Below, piece by piece: positions 30,535 to 54,684 of a stretch of DNA of 64,000 nt. Numbering within the stretch: the stretch's first letter is position 1; each line of letters starts with the position of its first letter. The stretch spans positions 4,340,001-4,404,000 of the forward strand of contig NZ_CP046622.1 in NCBI RefSeq assembly GCF_009755665.1, given 5' to 3'. A model generated the notes under the pieces. It had not been told where the DNA came from. It ran no database searches and saw nothing but the letters and a program-made list of their open reading frames with translations. The DNA is from Variovorax paradoxus. GTDB taxonomy: Bacteria > Pseudomonadota > Gammaproteobacteria > Burkholderiales > Burkholderiaceae_C. The position numbers and the translations under genes were made by a program.

Positions 30535-31023
30535 ATGGCTTCCCTTCTTCAGCAAAACGATCCGCTTGCCGCACCTCGGCTCACCTGGTTTGCCGACGTA
30601 TCCGTAGAAGTGGGCGAGCCGTTGGTGCTCAGCGAAGGCGCTCAGGGGCTGCGCCGTGTGGTGCCCATTTTGGGTGGCCATGCCAAGGGTGATGGCTGGA
30701 ACGGACGAGTACTGCCAGGCGGCGCCGATTTTCAGCGCATCGCGAGCGAGACGGTCTCGGAGCTGGACGCGCGCTACGGCTTGGAGACGGACGCGGGCGA
30801 CCGCATCTATGTGCGCAACCGCGCAATGCGCACGGCGCCGGCCGAGGTGATGGCGCAACTGCTGCGCGGCGATCCCGTGGACCCTGCGCAGGTCTATTTC
30901 CGCTGTGCGCCTTCGTTCGAAACGCGCAGCGAATCGCTGCGCTGGATCACCGAGCGGATGTTCGTCGGTGTCGGCGTGCGCCACCCGGCCCAGGTCGTCA
31001 TGCGCTTCTTCGCGCTGCAGTGA
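30535..31023 (+). CDS. DUF3237 domain protein
   Basis: A 162-residue protein. The DUF3237 pattern is visible: 'ADVSVEVGEPLVLSEGAQGLRRVVPILGGHAKGDGWNGRVLPGGADFQRI', then 'ARYGLETDAGDRIYVRNRAMR' and 'FRCAPSFETRSESLRWITERMFVGVG'. This family adopts a lipocalin-like barrel and often sits with Bug receptors or aromatic catabolism genes, as here. It precedes the Bug receptor by 48 bases in the same direction. Confidence 0.85.
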   Translation: MASLLQQNDPLAAPRLTWFADVSVEVGEPLVLSEGAQGLRRVVPILGGHAKGDGWNGRVLPGGADFQRIASETVSELDARYGLETDAGDRIYVRNRAMRTAPAEVMAQLLRGDPVDPAQVYFRCAPSFETRSESLRWITERMFVGVGVRHPAQVVMRFFALQ

Positions 31024-51135: not shown

Positions 51136-52404
51136 TTACATCGACTTGCCAGCCGGCTGGTCCGGCTTCTTGTCGTTGCCTTCGATGTACGGGCTCCACG
51201 GCTTGGCCTTGACCGGACCGGGCGTCTTCCACACTACGCTGAACTGGCCGTCCGCCTTGATCTCGCCGATGAACACGCTCTTGTGCAGGTGATGGTTCTT
51301 CTCGTCCATCTTGGACACGATGCCCGAAGGCGCCGTGAAGGTCTGGCCGGCCATCGCTGCGATCACCTTGTCGGTGTCCGTGCTCTTGGCCTTCTCGACC
51401 GCCTGCTTCCACATGTGGATGCCGATCCAGGTGGCTTCCATCGGGTCGTTGGTGAGCGGTTTGTCCTTGTGGCCGGCGATGTTCTTGGCCTTGGCGTAGT
51501 CGCCCCACTGCTTGATGAACGCCGTGTTGGTCGGGTTCTTGATCGACATGAAGTAGTTCCATGCGGCCAGATGGCCGACCAGCGGCTTGGTGTCCACGCC
51601 GCGCAGTTCTTCTTCGCCCACCGAGAAGGCCACCACCGGCACGTCCTTGGCCTTCAGGCCCGCGTTGCCCAGTTCCTTGTAGAAGGGCACGTTGGAGTCA
51701 CCGTTGATGGTGGACACCACGGCCGTCTTGCCGCCGGCCGAGAACTTCTTGATGTCGGCGACGATGGTCTGGTAGTCGCTGTGGCCGAAGGGGGTGTACT
51801 TCTCGTCGATGTCGGTGTCCTTCACGCCCTTGCTCTTGAGGTAGGCGCGCAGGATCTTGTTGGTGGTGCGGGGGTACACGTAGTCGGTGCCCAGCAGCAC
51901 CCAGCGCTTGGCGCCGCCGCCTTCCTTGCTCATGAGGTAGTCGACAGCCGGAATGGCTTGCTGGTTGGGCGCGGCGCCCGTGTAGAACACGTTCTTGGAG
52001 AGCTCTTCACCTTCGTACTGCACGGGGTAGAACAAGAGTCCGTTCATTTCCTCGACCACCGGCAGCACCGACTTGCGCGACACCGAGGTCCAGCAGCCGA
52101 AGATCACCGAAACCTTGTCCTGGCCGAGCAGTTGCTTGGTCTTTTCGGCGAACAGCGGCCAGTTGGAAGCCGGGTCGACCACCACGGGCTCGAGCTGCTT
52201 GCCCAGCACGCCGCCCTTCTTGTTGATGTCGTCGATGGCCATCAGCACCGTGTCTTTCAACACGGTTTCAGAAATGGCCATCGTGCCCGACAGCGAGTGC
52301 AGCACGCCGACCTTGATGGTGTCGGCGGCAAAGGCCGGCGCAGCGGAGATGCTGGCCAGGGCGACGGCGGCGGTGAGCGCCTTGAGGGTGAAACGACGTT
52401 GCAT
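51136..52404 (-). CDS. urtA: Urea ABC transporter substrate-binding protein UrtA
   Basis: A 422-residue periplasmic receptor with signal peptide cleaved near 'APAFAAD' (residue 27). The mature part follows UrtA: 'IKVGVLHSLSGTMAISETVLKDTVLMAIDDINKKGGVLGKQLEPVVVDPASNWPLFAEKTKQLL', 'VSVIFGCWTSVSRKSVLPVVEEMNGLLFYPVQYEGEE', 'GTDYVYPRTTN'. This pattern separates UrtA from amide-binding AmiC and amino-acid receptors. It delivers urea to UrtBC. First gene of the operon; the long spacer to urtB carries REP-like repeats. Confidence 0.95.
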   Translation of the reverse strand: MQRRFTLKALTAAVALASISAAPAFAADTIKVGVLHSLSGTMAISETVLKDTVLMAIDDINKKGGVLGKQLEPVVVDPASNWPLFAEKTKQLLGQDKVSVIFGCWTSVSRKSVLPVVEEMNGLLFYPVQYEGEELSKNVFYTGAAPNQQAIPAVDYLMSKEGGGAKRWVLLGTDYVYPRTTNKILRAYLKSKGVKDTDIDEKYTPFGHSDYQTIVADIKKFSAGGKTAVVSTINGDSNVPFYKELGNAGLKAKDVPVVAFSVGEEELRGVDTKPLVGHLAAWNYFMSIKNPTNTAFIKQWGDYAKAKNIAGHKDKPLTNDPMEATWIGIHMWKQAVEKAKSTDTDKVIAAMAGQTFTAPSGIVSKMDEKNHHLHKSVFIGEIKADGQFSVVWKTPGPVKAKPWSPYIEGNDKKPDQPAGKSM

Positions 52405-52554
52405 GTGGACTCCTGCTCCGGGGTGGTTGAAACCTGCTCGCCGGGCTCGCCGGACGATGGAGGGGAGTCTGCGGATTCGACCGCGCGCGAGAAATACGCC
52501 GGGTGGCGTACACGGAGGTACTCAGGGCGGGAGTGTCGAGCCGCAACACAAAAA

Positions 52555-52586
52555 CCCATTTTGGGCTTTAAAATACCCAAAATGGG
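52555..52586. promoter_or_regulatory. Perfect inverted repeat at the MNT start, probable operator
   Basis: CCCATTTTGGG at 52555-52565 and its exact reverse complement CCCAAAATGGG at 52576-52586 are separated by ten bases. Each arm is itself almost palindromic. The right arm contains the ATG at 52582 and ends two bases before the ATG at 52588. A TAAAAT at 52569-52574 within the spacer is at the right distance to be a -10 element for a transcript starting at the ATG. No ribosome-binding site is seen, so a leaderless, self-repressed transcript is the simplest reading. Confidence 0.6.
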
Positions 52587-52587
52587 C

Positions 52588-53208
52588 ATGTCCTCGTCGC
52601 AAGTAAAACAGACCGCAAGGTCCGCCAGCCTGGCGGATGCCCTGTTCACGACCACCCAGCAGCGCGTGCTCGGCTATCTCTTCGGCCAGCCGGACCGGAG
52701 TTTCTTTTCCACCGAGCTGATCAAGTTGACCGGCGCAGGCTCCGGCGCCGTGCAACGCGAACTCAAACAGTTGGCAGACAGTGGCCTGCTCATCACATCG
52801 CGCGTCGGCAACCAGAAGCACTATCAAGCCAATGCCGCGGCTCCGATCTTCGACGAATTGAGCAGCATCGTTCGCAAGACCTTCGGACTCGCAGGTCCAC
52901 TGCGCGAAGCGCTGGAACCGCTGGCCGAAAAGATCGAAGCCGCGTTCGTGTTCGGCTCTGTGGCCAAGAAGAGCGACACGGCCGCGAGCGACATCGACCT
53001 GCTGCTGATCAGTGAAGAACTTGCGTATTCGGATCTGTTTCTCGCTCTCGATGCAGTGTCGGCACGTCTGGGCCGTACAGTGAACCCGACCATGTTCACA
53101 AGAAAAGAACTGATGCGAAAGCACAAAGACGGCGAATCGTTCGTGAAGCGCGTCATGGAGCAGCCCAAGCTCTGGATCATCGGCAACGCGCATGCCCTCC
53201 CCGCTTGA
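52588..53208 (+). CDS. Winged-helix/nucleotidyltransferase (MNT) fusion protein
   Basis: A 206-residue protein (208 from ATG 52582). Residues about 18-85 form a winged helix ('FTTTQQRVLGYLFGQPDRSFFSTELIKLTGAGSGAVQRELKQLADSGLLITSR'), an ArsR/MarR-like DNA-binding module. Residues 115-206 hold a minimal nucleotidyltransferase domain with G123-S124 and the catalytic acids D135-x-D137 in 'GSVAKKSDTAASDIDLLLI'. In HEPN/MNT pairs the MNT partner adenylylates and silences the HEPN toxin. The DNA-binding half suggests it also represses its own promoter. Overlaps the next gene by 17 bases. Confidence 0.85.
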   Translation: MSSSQVKQTARSASLADALFTTTQQRVLGYLFGQPDRSFFSTELIKLTGAGSGAVQRELKQLADSGLLITSRVGNQKHYQANAAAPIFDELSSIVRKTFGLAGPLREALEPLAEKIEAAFVFGSVAKKSDTAASDIDLLLISEELAYSDLFLALDAVSARLGRTVNPTMFTRKELMRKHKDGESFVKRVMEQPKLWIIGNAHALPA

Positions 53209-53620
53209 AAACCTGTGCGGCCCGACCAAGCCGCTCGCCGCAGAACCTCCGGATGCTCGCGAATTCGCGGGCCTGGTGCGTTCCGGACTCGCGCGCCTGG
53301 CGGACGCTCAGGTGATGCAACTTTCCGTCGAGGGCCGATTCGATCTTGCCTACAACGCAGCGCATGCCATGTGCCTCGCGGCGCTGCGTTGGCATGGCTA
53401 CCGCTCAGGCAACCGCTTCATTGTCTTTCAGGTGCTGCCTCATACATTGGAGCTGGGCCCGGAGGTGTGGCGGGTACTGGCCAAGTGCCATGAAATACGT
53501 AATCTCGGAGAGTACGAGGGCGACATGAATGTAGACGAGCGCATCGTTCGCGATCTGATCGCCGCATGCCAACGCGTCTCCTCTAAGCTTTCTGAACTGC
53601 CTCCACCCAAGCCCGACTAG
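53192..53620 (+). CDS. HEPN-like partner of the MNT protein
   Basis: A 142-residue, mostly helical protein: 'EFAGLVRSGLARLADAQVMQLSVEGRFDLAYNAAHAMCLAALRWHGY' then 'VLAKCHEIRNLGEYEGDMNVDERIVRDLIAACQRV'. Two long helix pairs, 'RFDLAYNAAH' and the 'H-E-x-R-N-x-x-E-Y' segment are how HEPN proteins linked to MNT domains look. The canonical R-x4-6-H ribonuclease motif is not clearly present, so it may be an inactive, divergent or differently acting member. Translation-coupled to the MNT gene. The 3' end overlaps the convergent esterase gene by four bases. Confidence 0.7.
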   Translation: MPSPLENLCGPTKPLAAEPPDAREFAGLVRSGLARLADAQVMQLSVEGRFDLAYNAAHAMCLAALRWHGYRSGNRFIVFQVLPHTLELGPEVWRVLAKCHEIRNLGEYEGDMNVDERIVRDLIAACQRVSSKLSELPPPKPD

Positions 53621-54684
53621 ACGTTCGCGGCCGAAATGAAACTCGGCGCCTCCAGCTTGAACTGCGCCGCCGCAAAGGCCCAGACCATCCGCGTCGCGTC
53701 CGGCCCGGCCGGGTCGCTGAAAAGCAGGCTGGCGGCGCCGCCGCTCCAGGCGTGGCCCAGGCCTGCAATCTCGCACAGCGTGACCAGCGTGCGGCCCTTG
53801 CGGCGGAACTGGGTCACGCGCATGGGGTGCCGTTTGCCACGCTGGAGCGTGCGCGCGAGGCCTGGCTTAGCACCTACCGCCGTGGCCCACACGGCCGCGC
53901 TATTGACGGCGTTGCTCGGCGCGACCACGGCGTCGGCATCGCCATGCAGCACCAGCATCGGTGGCAATGTCGCGAAGACGGCGGCGGCGCCCATTGCCTT
54001 GCCGACCGCGGTGGAGGGCATCGGCGGCGTGTGCTGGCCGCGCATCGCGCCCAAGGCGGTGGCCGAGGACTTCGCGGCGCCAGGCGCCACGCCTGAATGC
54101 ATGACCACGGCGCGAAATCGCAGCGGGTAGCGCGTTGCCAGCAGGGCCGCCATGCTGGCTCCGGCCGAGAGGCCGGCCAGCGCAATGCGCTCGCGGTCTA
54201 CCGGGTACAGCACGCAGGCCTGATCGATGGCAGCCATCAGCGTGGCGGCCTCGGCGTCGGCCTTGCCCGAGCGTCGCTCATACCAGTTCCAGCAACCTTG
54301 CGGGTGGGCCAGCCTGTCTTGCTCCAGATAAAGCACCAGAAAGCGCTGCCGTACCGCGAGCGCGTTCATGCGAGTGCTGGCCGCAAAGTCGCGCCCGGTC
54401 TGACCGCAGCCGTGCAGCATGACCATGAGCGGCAATCTCTCGCCGGGCTTCAGCTTCAGGTCGGCCGGGCGAAAGAGGTGATAGCCCCGCGCGCCGCCCG
54501 GGCCCAGCGCCATGCCGCTGAGCCAGTCGCCCCGGCCCGGCGGCGGCTTGAGGCGCTTTGCGGTGGCGCGCTGCACCTGCCCGGTCACGCGCTTGCTGTT
54601 GCTCAGCGTGAGCTTGGTCAGGGCCTTCAGGTTGCGCTCATAGGCGCGGGCAAAGAGAGAAGCAGCGGTGGAACGACGAACCAT
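53617..54684 (-). CDS. PHB depolymerase family esterase
   Basis: A 355-residue hydrolase. 'LPLMVMLHGCGQTGRDFAASTRMNALA' contains the oxyanion-hole histidine-glycine-cysteine typical of the PHB-depolymerase/feruloyl-esterase family. Nucleophile in 'IALAGLSAGASMAALL', aspartate in 'LVLHGDADAVVAPSNA', histidine in 'IAGLGHAWSGGAASL'. No signal peptide is obvious; the start is basic (MVRRSTAASLFARAYER), so it may act inside the cell on oligomers. It could also be an esterase without a PHB role. Confidence 0.87.
   Translation of the reverse strand: MVRRSTAASLFARAYERNLKALTKLTLSNSKRVTGQVQRATAKRLKPPPGRGDWLSGMALGPGGARGYHLFRPADLKLKPGERLPLMVMLHGCGQTGRDFAASTRMNALAVRQRFLVLYLEQDRLAHPQGCWNWYERRSGKADAEAATLMAAIDQACVLYPVDRERIALAGLSAGASMAALLATRYPLRFRAVVMHSGVAPGAAKSSATALGAMRGQHTPPMPSTAVGKAMGAAAVFATLPPMLVLHGDADAVVAPSNAVNSAAVWATAVGAKPGLARTLQRGKRHPMRVTQFRRKGRTLVTLCEIAGLGHAWSGGAASLLFSDPAGPDATRMVWAFAAAQFKLEAPSFISAANV

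Follow-up and report, generated by a model that had tools for sequence, protein, structure and literature searches.

Modules that pair a HEPN protein with a minimal nucleotidyltransferase (MNT) are predicted to be the most abundant toxin-antitoxin systems of prokaryotes (PMC7641770), and in 2009 the authors who proposed them raised the possibility of a DNA-binding partner acting in trans (PMC2701414). In the Class I pair HepT/MntA of Shewanella oneidensis (SO_3166/SO_3165), termed 'type VII' in the wording of NCBIfam, the HEPN protein is the toxin and the MNT is reported to bind its own promoter; the published account predicts no DNA-binding domain, places the transcript start 30 nt upstream and describes two dissimilar palindromes (PMC4621449). 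HepT carries the motif RX4HXY, whereas MntA combines the motif GSx10DxD with a third aspartate, its second magnesium ion being held by D39, D41 and D71 (PMC7641770). Class II pairs, whose HEPN partner belongs to PF05168, are described as keeping GSx10DxD and a conserved tyrosine without Rx4H (PMC7641770). A further two-gene arrangement, PDC-M05 of the PADLOC collection, joins a nucleotidyltransferase (M05A) to a HEPN protein (M05B); it is presented as a computed candidate system with an antiviral role that is unconfirmed in print (PMC12988326), and PDC-M05A of Burkholderia cenocepacia is reported to be upregulated in phage infection (PMC12584637).

The window analysed here, a stretch of 64,000 nucleotides from Variovorax paradoxus, harbours two adjacent overlapping open reading frames (Table 1) whose products match the PADLOC profiles for PDC-M05A (PDLC04368, 1.1e-84) and PDC-M05B (PDLC04373, 3.1e-63), which is the combination by which PADLOC recognizes PDC-M05. 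The pair is therefore already listed as a candidate defence system; what is new is a conserved operator, a start codon placed inside it and the loss of the third metal ligand, features for which no description in PDC-M05 was found in a literature search that lay mostly outside subscription papers. The locus probably represents an autorepressed variant of the HEPN/MNT toxin-antitoxin module in which repressor and neutralizer are one chain. The winged helix of the first protein would bind as dimers to two palindromes lying two helical turns apart and would block RNA polymerase at the -10 element and the start site, while the nucleotidyltransferase domain would hold the HEPN partner in check, either by binding or by an altered nucleotidyl chemistry. 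The mRNA would begin at or within a few nucleotides of the first codon, the first gene would be translated without a Shine-Dalgarno sequence, and the overlapping HEPN gene would be made through coupling or from a weak site of its own. Titration or removal of the first protein would then derepress the operon and free the HEPN protein, which would act most likely on RNA; a role in phage infection is conceivable. The DNA-binding part is here fused in, and the likely operator is legible from the sequence and persists through half-site changes, so that binding, repression and release become directly testable.

Table 1. Features of the winged-helix/MNT-HEPN locus (positions in the 64,000-nucleotide window)
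Feature	Position	Strand	Remarks
Module, approximate extent	52529..53643	.	Estimated from three congeners with an empty site, two of them agreeing to 1 bp and the third deviating by 10-14 bp
Weak -35-like hexamer AACACA	52545..52550	+	3/6 to TTGACA, 18-bp spacer
Putative operator palindrome 1	52552..52568	.	Core CCCATTTTGGG 52555-52565; 17-bp extension inferred from relatives
-10 element TAAAAT	52569..52574	+	Between the palindromes, overlapping them
Putative operator palindrome 2	52573..52589	.	Core CCCAAAATGGG 52576-52586; start codon inside
ATG start	52582..52584	+	Predicted leader 0-1 nt
Alternative in-frame ATG	52588	+	Leader ~6 nt
PDC-M05A, winged-helix/minimal-nucleotidyltransferase fusion	52582..53208	+	208 aa; putative autorepressor and antitoxin
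Winged-helix domain, ArsR/MarR-like	52630..52839	+	Residues ~17-86
GS-x10-DxD motif	52954..52998	+	G125 S126 to D139 (D137, D139)
N168	53083..53085	+	Aligned with the third metal-binding Asp in MntA
PDC-M05B, HEPN-fold protein	53192..53620	+	142 aa; putative toxin; overlaps the MNT frame
Motif H100-x2-R103-N104-x2-E107-Y108-x-G110	53489..53521	+	End of helix 3

A first-pass annotation, made from the letters of the sequence, had proposed an overlapping gene pair whose first member fuses a winged helix to a nucleotidyltransferase with G-S and D-x-D. The overlap and the motif residues (G125, S126, D137 and D139) are present as proposed, and the fusion is supported by profile matches, predicted fold and conservation. 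The first protein scores above the cut-offs for Polbeta and NTP_transf_2, and its structural model has a pLDDT of 84.9 and a pTM of 0.60, the latter denoting a low-confidence arrangement of the domains. S126, S136, D137 and D139 never vary among 146 distinct proteins of the family (own included), and G125 is kept in 145. The position of N168 is occupied by N in 138 of these proteins, K in 4, S in 2, H in 1 and D in 1. When 15 rows from loci above the NCBIfam MntA cut-off are aligned with the family, the [VI]-D aspartate of the MntA type falls on N168 in 13; the alignment at this place is unconvincing for the row of L206, a second ORF, and for that of L219. The interval from D41 to D71 in MntA measures 30 residues, that from D139 to N168 here 29, and the NCBIfam MntA_antitoxin model gives the first protein 30.7 bits, below its cut-off of 60. 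As the third metal-binding aspartate is replaced, adenylylation of the HEPN partner by the MntA mechanism cannot be assumed, and the earlier description of a repressor and modifying enzyme in one chain stands as regards the union of DNA-binding domain and nucleotidyltransferase and is weakened as regards the modifying enzyme. The missing aspartate also raises the question of whether all MNT antitoxins act via AMPylation. Losing one carboxylate, even in a conserved manner, need not mean inactivity: the RelA/SpoT synthetases are described as enzymes in spite of lacking one of the three acids (PMC11646218). The same genome encodes a paralogue of the first protein on the minus strand (L002, C1:3672984-3676334), a stand-alone winged-helix/MNT protein of 216 aa that lacks both GS and DxD and beside which no HEPN gene was detected; this is possibly a domesticated regulator, and a similarly weak match occurs in the congener G122.

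The second protein is modelled as a four-helix HEPN fold (pLDDT 93.5). The top matches of a structure search with this model are HEPN proteins, none with a Foldseek E below 0.001, and the nearest solved structure is the HEPN-T protein AF0298 (2hsb). A profile built on the family reaches AF0298 at E 0.17 among the sequences of solved structures; fragments of AppA, found by the same comparison at E 0.03, align with residues 2-58 only and were judged a chance match. No Pfam HEPN family, PF05168 included, matches any of 63 members, in which respect the family differs from Class II pairs and from AF0298-like HEPN-T proteins, although its nearest fold is of the HEPN-T type; the V. paradoxus protein has no Pfam match at all. 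A profile comparison with 14 HepT-type rows of Class I found no relation (probability 0.8%). In 58 intact HEPN sequences, own included, the residues H58, R66, R71, R75, W93, R94, K98, H100, R103, N104, E107, Y108 and G110 are all invariant; the remaining 23 of 81 loci were omitted as truncated, broken or outside the limits on length or start. With distant clades added, all 63 sequences retain R103, N104, Y108 and G110, whereas H58 and H100 are no longer invariant.

The RX4HXY motif of HepT is replaced by R103-N-L-G-E-Y108. A formal R94-x5-H100 string does exist, with both residues invariant in the 58 sequences, but it lies in the middle of helix 3 and is lost in distant clades; R103 is preferred as the putative HEPN site, with R94-x5-H100 as a possible alternative. 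The weak profile alignment with AF0298 (E 0.17) sets R103 on its R and E107-Y108 on its D-Y. The protein resembles the AF0298-like HEPN-T type in that it is without Rx4-6H and keeps an arginine, an acid and a tyrosine; in AF0298-like HEPNs, according to Anantharaman and colleagues, the H is missing while the R and another, N-terminal H are kept (PMC3710099). The annotators' picture of a helical, HEPN-like partner without a clear R-x4-6-H thus holds for the fold and, in substance, for the motif, and their suggestion of a non-canonical HEPN can be narrowed to this type. The conserved tyrosine without Rx4H is shared with Class II pairs, which differ in that here a winged helix is fused to the MNT and the third aspartate is lost.

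These observations bear on what the nucleotidyltransferase domain does. It could be a classical adenylyltransferase antitoxin that AMPylates Y108 of the HEPN protein as MntA does Y104 of HepT, the asparagine at 168 being tolerated. The intact GSx10DxD, with S126, D137 and D139 in all 146 proteins, and the invariance of Y108 (63/63) are in keeping with this, as are the Class II pairs that retain motif and tyrosine (PMC7641770) and the RelA/SpoT synthetases that work one acid short (PMC11646218). On the other hand, D71 of MntA helps to bind the second Mg2+ (PMC7641770) and its counterpart is kept in 13 of 15 MntA-type rows against 1 of 146 proteins here, Y108 lies at R+5 and not at R+7 as in RX4HXY, and the MntA model stays under its cut-off; AMPylation in the manner of MntA is a tentative possibility. 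Alternatively, the domain might be a nucleotide sensor and not an enzyme: a ligand at GSx10DxD would alter the winged helix, the hold on the HEPN protein or both, making the chain a one-component sensor, repressor and antitoxin. This suggestion, which is tentative, draws on the substitution of the third ligand by a conserved asparagine (138/146) with the first two kept, on the presence of a winged helix in the same chain, on the paralogue that lacks GS and DxD and has no detected HEPN neighbour, and on the upregulation of B. cenocepacia PDC-M05A in phage infection (PMC12584637). The conserved active-site residues would suit an enzyme equally well, however, the ligand is hypothetical and the domain arrangement is of low confidence. 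A still more specific combination would have a large family of HEPN modules run by a nucleotide-gated sensor, repressor and antitoxin with asparagine for the third ligand. Its start codon would lie in the operator, so that a single protein-DNA contact would cover promoter and first codon; its leaderless mRNA would be read by intact 70S ribosomes once the HEPN protein had damaged normal initiation; and winged helix and operator would have drifted together at a constant 21 bp. This combination is unlikely to hold in full.

On one side of the module lies urtA, so named for its match and its neighbours, which encodes a urea-transporter-type periplasmic binding protein and starts at 52404, approximately 150 bp from the operator; on the other side lies a gene for a PHB-depolymerase-type esterase. 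Both are minus-strand genes. In three congeners the site is empty: one flank matches as far as 52527-52542, the other resumes at 53644-53654, and 24 to 44 bp separate them, so that operator and two genes emerge as a unit of about 1.1 kb. Among the matches listed, the module stands next to urtA in the V. paradoxus genome and in 6 of the 80 other congeners searched, and the match in another congener (G226) lies elsewhere. One congener, G236, has approximately 330 bp extra between urtA and the operator (L120, 1167-1500), which indicates that the urtA side of the site varies. Searching 200 family genomes with the first protein gave matches in 40 (E of 0.001 or less, own included), a few of them weak and confined to the winged helix. 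When the HEPN side was used as query, 29 of 31 family matches adjoined an MNT match, the remaining 2 being fragments; starting from the MNT side, a HEPN gene was detected beside 29 of 46 matches (both sets compared by eye), the HEPN being more divergent and easier to miss. In the 81 loci compared, the MNT frame is open throughout, and the HEPN gene was called intact in 61, open in one frame on recheck in two (L041 and L098), disrupted in 13, not found in 3 and at a contig end in 2. The HEPN gene is thus broken or not found next to an open MNT in 16 of 79 loci, a count that is biased by the choice of loci on MNT similarity and serves as a hint only.

This distribution matters for the possibility that the two genes form a housekeeping or domesticated regulator and not a toxin-antitoxin system, the HEPN protein being a harmless substrate-binding subunit. 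The lack of a clear Rx4-6H and the description of HEPN domains fused to nucleotidyltransferases as mostly inactive (PMC3710099) would be compatible with such a role. It is nevertheless improbable in view of the patchy occurrence (40/200, some weak), the position next to urtA in the own genome and 6 of 80 congeners among the matches listed, the empty sites, the broken or missing HEPN genes beside an open MNT (16/79 loci), and the invariant polar residues of the HEPN protein; toxicity can, moreover, persist in HEPNs that lack the motif, according to the same survey (PMC3710099). The searches gave no backing to the idea of a phage or plasmid element. None of 50,697 phage records yielded a match and no match was confirmed on viral contigs, while 18 of 72,556 plasmid records match, all below 60% identity; with so few plasmid and no phage matches, addiction is not evident. 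Several Legionella plasmids (among records H7-H12) carry a distant winged-helix/nucleotidyltransferase homologue, and in five of these six records the gene under the match is annotated as a DNA-binding protein.

Upstream of the first gene, direct reading of the letters confirms the perfect 11-base inverted repeat over the start codon that had been reported, composed of CCCATTTTGGG (52555-52565), CTTTAAAATA (52566-52575) and CCCAAAATGGG (52576-52586), together with a TAAAAT seven bases ahead of the ATG. Both arms are themselves palindromic, CCCA-N3-TGGG, with centres 21 bp apart, and the region is better described as two palindromes than as one inverted repeat; the 10-bp spacer between them holds most of the TAAAAT. 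The 32-bp double pattern occurs exactly once in the 5.57-Mb genome when both strands are read, and the next-best matches listed carry 2 mismatches and are GC-rich. Against an expectation of 0.09 occurrences of CCCAWWWTGGG in the window, 3 are present, two of them at the operator. The third exact CCCATTTTGGG, at 30664-30674, is a single copy inside ORFs on both strands and is probably due to chance, though it is a possible extra single site. In a palindrome search blind to sequence, the V. paradoxus locus (L156) scored 12, equal to the best of 12 shuffles (mean 8.9); this test alone is therefore not decisive for the own locus, and the weight comes from relatives.

The relatives examined comprise the own locus and the best 80 of at least 486 confirmed by a profile scan of contigs, and derive from Variovorax (75-92% identity for the named ones), other Burkholderiales, Rhodocyclaceae, Xanthomonadaceae and MAGs. 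The pattern CCCAN3TGGG-N10-CCCAN3TGGG stands upstream of the MNT gene in all 81 of these close loci with at least 13 of the 16 specified positions, 44 loci having 16, 25 having 15, 9 having 14 and 3 having 13; among controls, 4 of 2025 random windows reach 13 and none exceeds it, and 1 of 2025 shuffles reaches 13 or more. Column identity over 80 loci is 0.25-0.26 further upstream and 0.45 over the ten bases that directly precede arm 1, amounts to 0.79 in arm 1, 0.59 in the spacer and 0.88 in arm 2, and falls to 0.38 and then 0.33 beyond. These columns suggest that each element extends to approximately 17 bp, ATR-CCCA-N3-TGGG-YAT. TTG-type hexamers are found near the place equivalent to AACACA in many relatives.

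The sequence-blind search prescribed no fixed sequence, demanded agreement of four half-sites, allowed seven spacings and used 12 shuffles for each of 67 locus entries, own included, some of which had been fetched twice or are also among the 80. Forty-four entries beat all their shuffles, 43 of them at 21-bp spacing; judged by eye, half-sites of another type than CCC/GGG occur in 16 of these, among more distant loci, and all 16 keep the 21 bp; the other 23, with the tied own locus among them, did not beat the shuffles. The probabilities attached to these operator sets are overstated, the loci being related and partly shared by both. The half-sites include the types CCCA, TTCCC, TACTCA, GCCA/GCTA, ATGCT, CGTGC, GTTGC-N7-GCAAC, GTAGC-N7-GCTAC, GTAAC-N7-GTTAC and GATGC/GACGC, and by inspection the residues of the recognition helix likewise vary between half-site clades. 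Going by these alignments, the two-palindrome layout is a family trait, kept where the half-site letters have changed, and such change at fixed geometry is the trace expected of a co-evolving dimeric repressor. That the palindromes serve some other regulator, or the oppositely oriented urtA some 150 bp away, is very improbable, given that they stay with the MNT gene in relatives despite differing upstream DNA, are absent from the three empty sites read, and change their half-sites between clades at constant spacing.

The position of the start codon follows the same geometry. An A occupies the third and last free position of the palindrome in 74 of 81 second arms but in no more than 17 of the 81 first arms (Fisher p 8.6e-21), and an A there creates an ATG. 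At this place an ATG in open frame is found in 72 of the 81 loci, and TTG (3), GTG (1) and ACG (1), all open, in five more; 3 sites are out of frame and 1 has a broken TTA frame. A best -10 element with at least 4 of 6 consensus bases is present in 91% of loci compared with 10% of 1560 control draws, and it ends 7 nt before the start in 57 loci, 10 in 21, 6 in 2 and 5 in 1. The preferred place of the start codon thus appears to be the second palindrome, 5-10 nt downstream of the -10. The GCCA/GCTA clade has its -10 in the second palindrome, with a TGC-type extended -10 lying 5 to 7 nt before the ATG in 10 of 12 rows; for L150 and L018 of this clade the script picked another register. An ATG at +18 was considered as the start in many relatives and rejected, for it sits in or directly after the -10. 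In 32 loci no alternative in-frame start codon lies between the second-arm start and the fold. L009, L013, L054, L076, L184 and others have a start outside the palindrome, possibly a short leader, or are unclear.

No Shine-Dalgarno sequence is present in bases -16 to -4 of the V. paradoxus ATG (CTTTAAAATACCC), in agreement with the absence of a visible ribosome site noted at first. A Shine-Dalgarno 4-mer precedes 1% of 73 second-palindrome ATGs against 50% of 68 HEPN starts; the figure for 804 crude neighbour ORFs is 17%, a set that makes a poor yardstick. With leader lengths derived from the placement of the consensus -10, near-leaderless initiation looks conserved in much of the family, and the first-pass proposal of a probably leaderless start gains computational support from the conserved -10 gap and the lack of Shine-Dalgarno sequences in relatives. 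Lambda cI transcribed from PRM and tetR of Tn1721 are autoregulated DNA-binding proteins read from leaderless mRNA, as is predicted here; what sets the present module apart is a start codon placed within the putative operator itself, together with a nucleotidyltransferase on the repressor chain and a partner of the HEPN fold. Where that partner presumably targets RNA, a leaderless start conserved for the antitoxin suggests fail-safe synthesis of the antitoxin under translational damage. In a distant clade (L186 and L193) the MNT gene is preceded by TACCCA-type palindromes, the second of which encloses an in-frame ATG, an arrangement perhaps arrived at separately.
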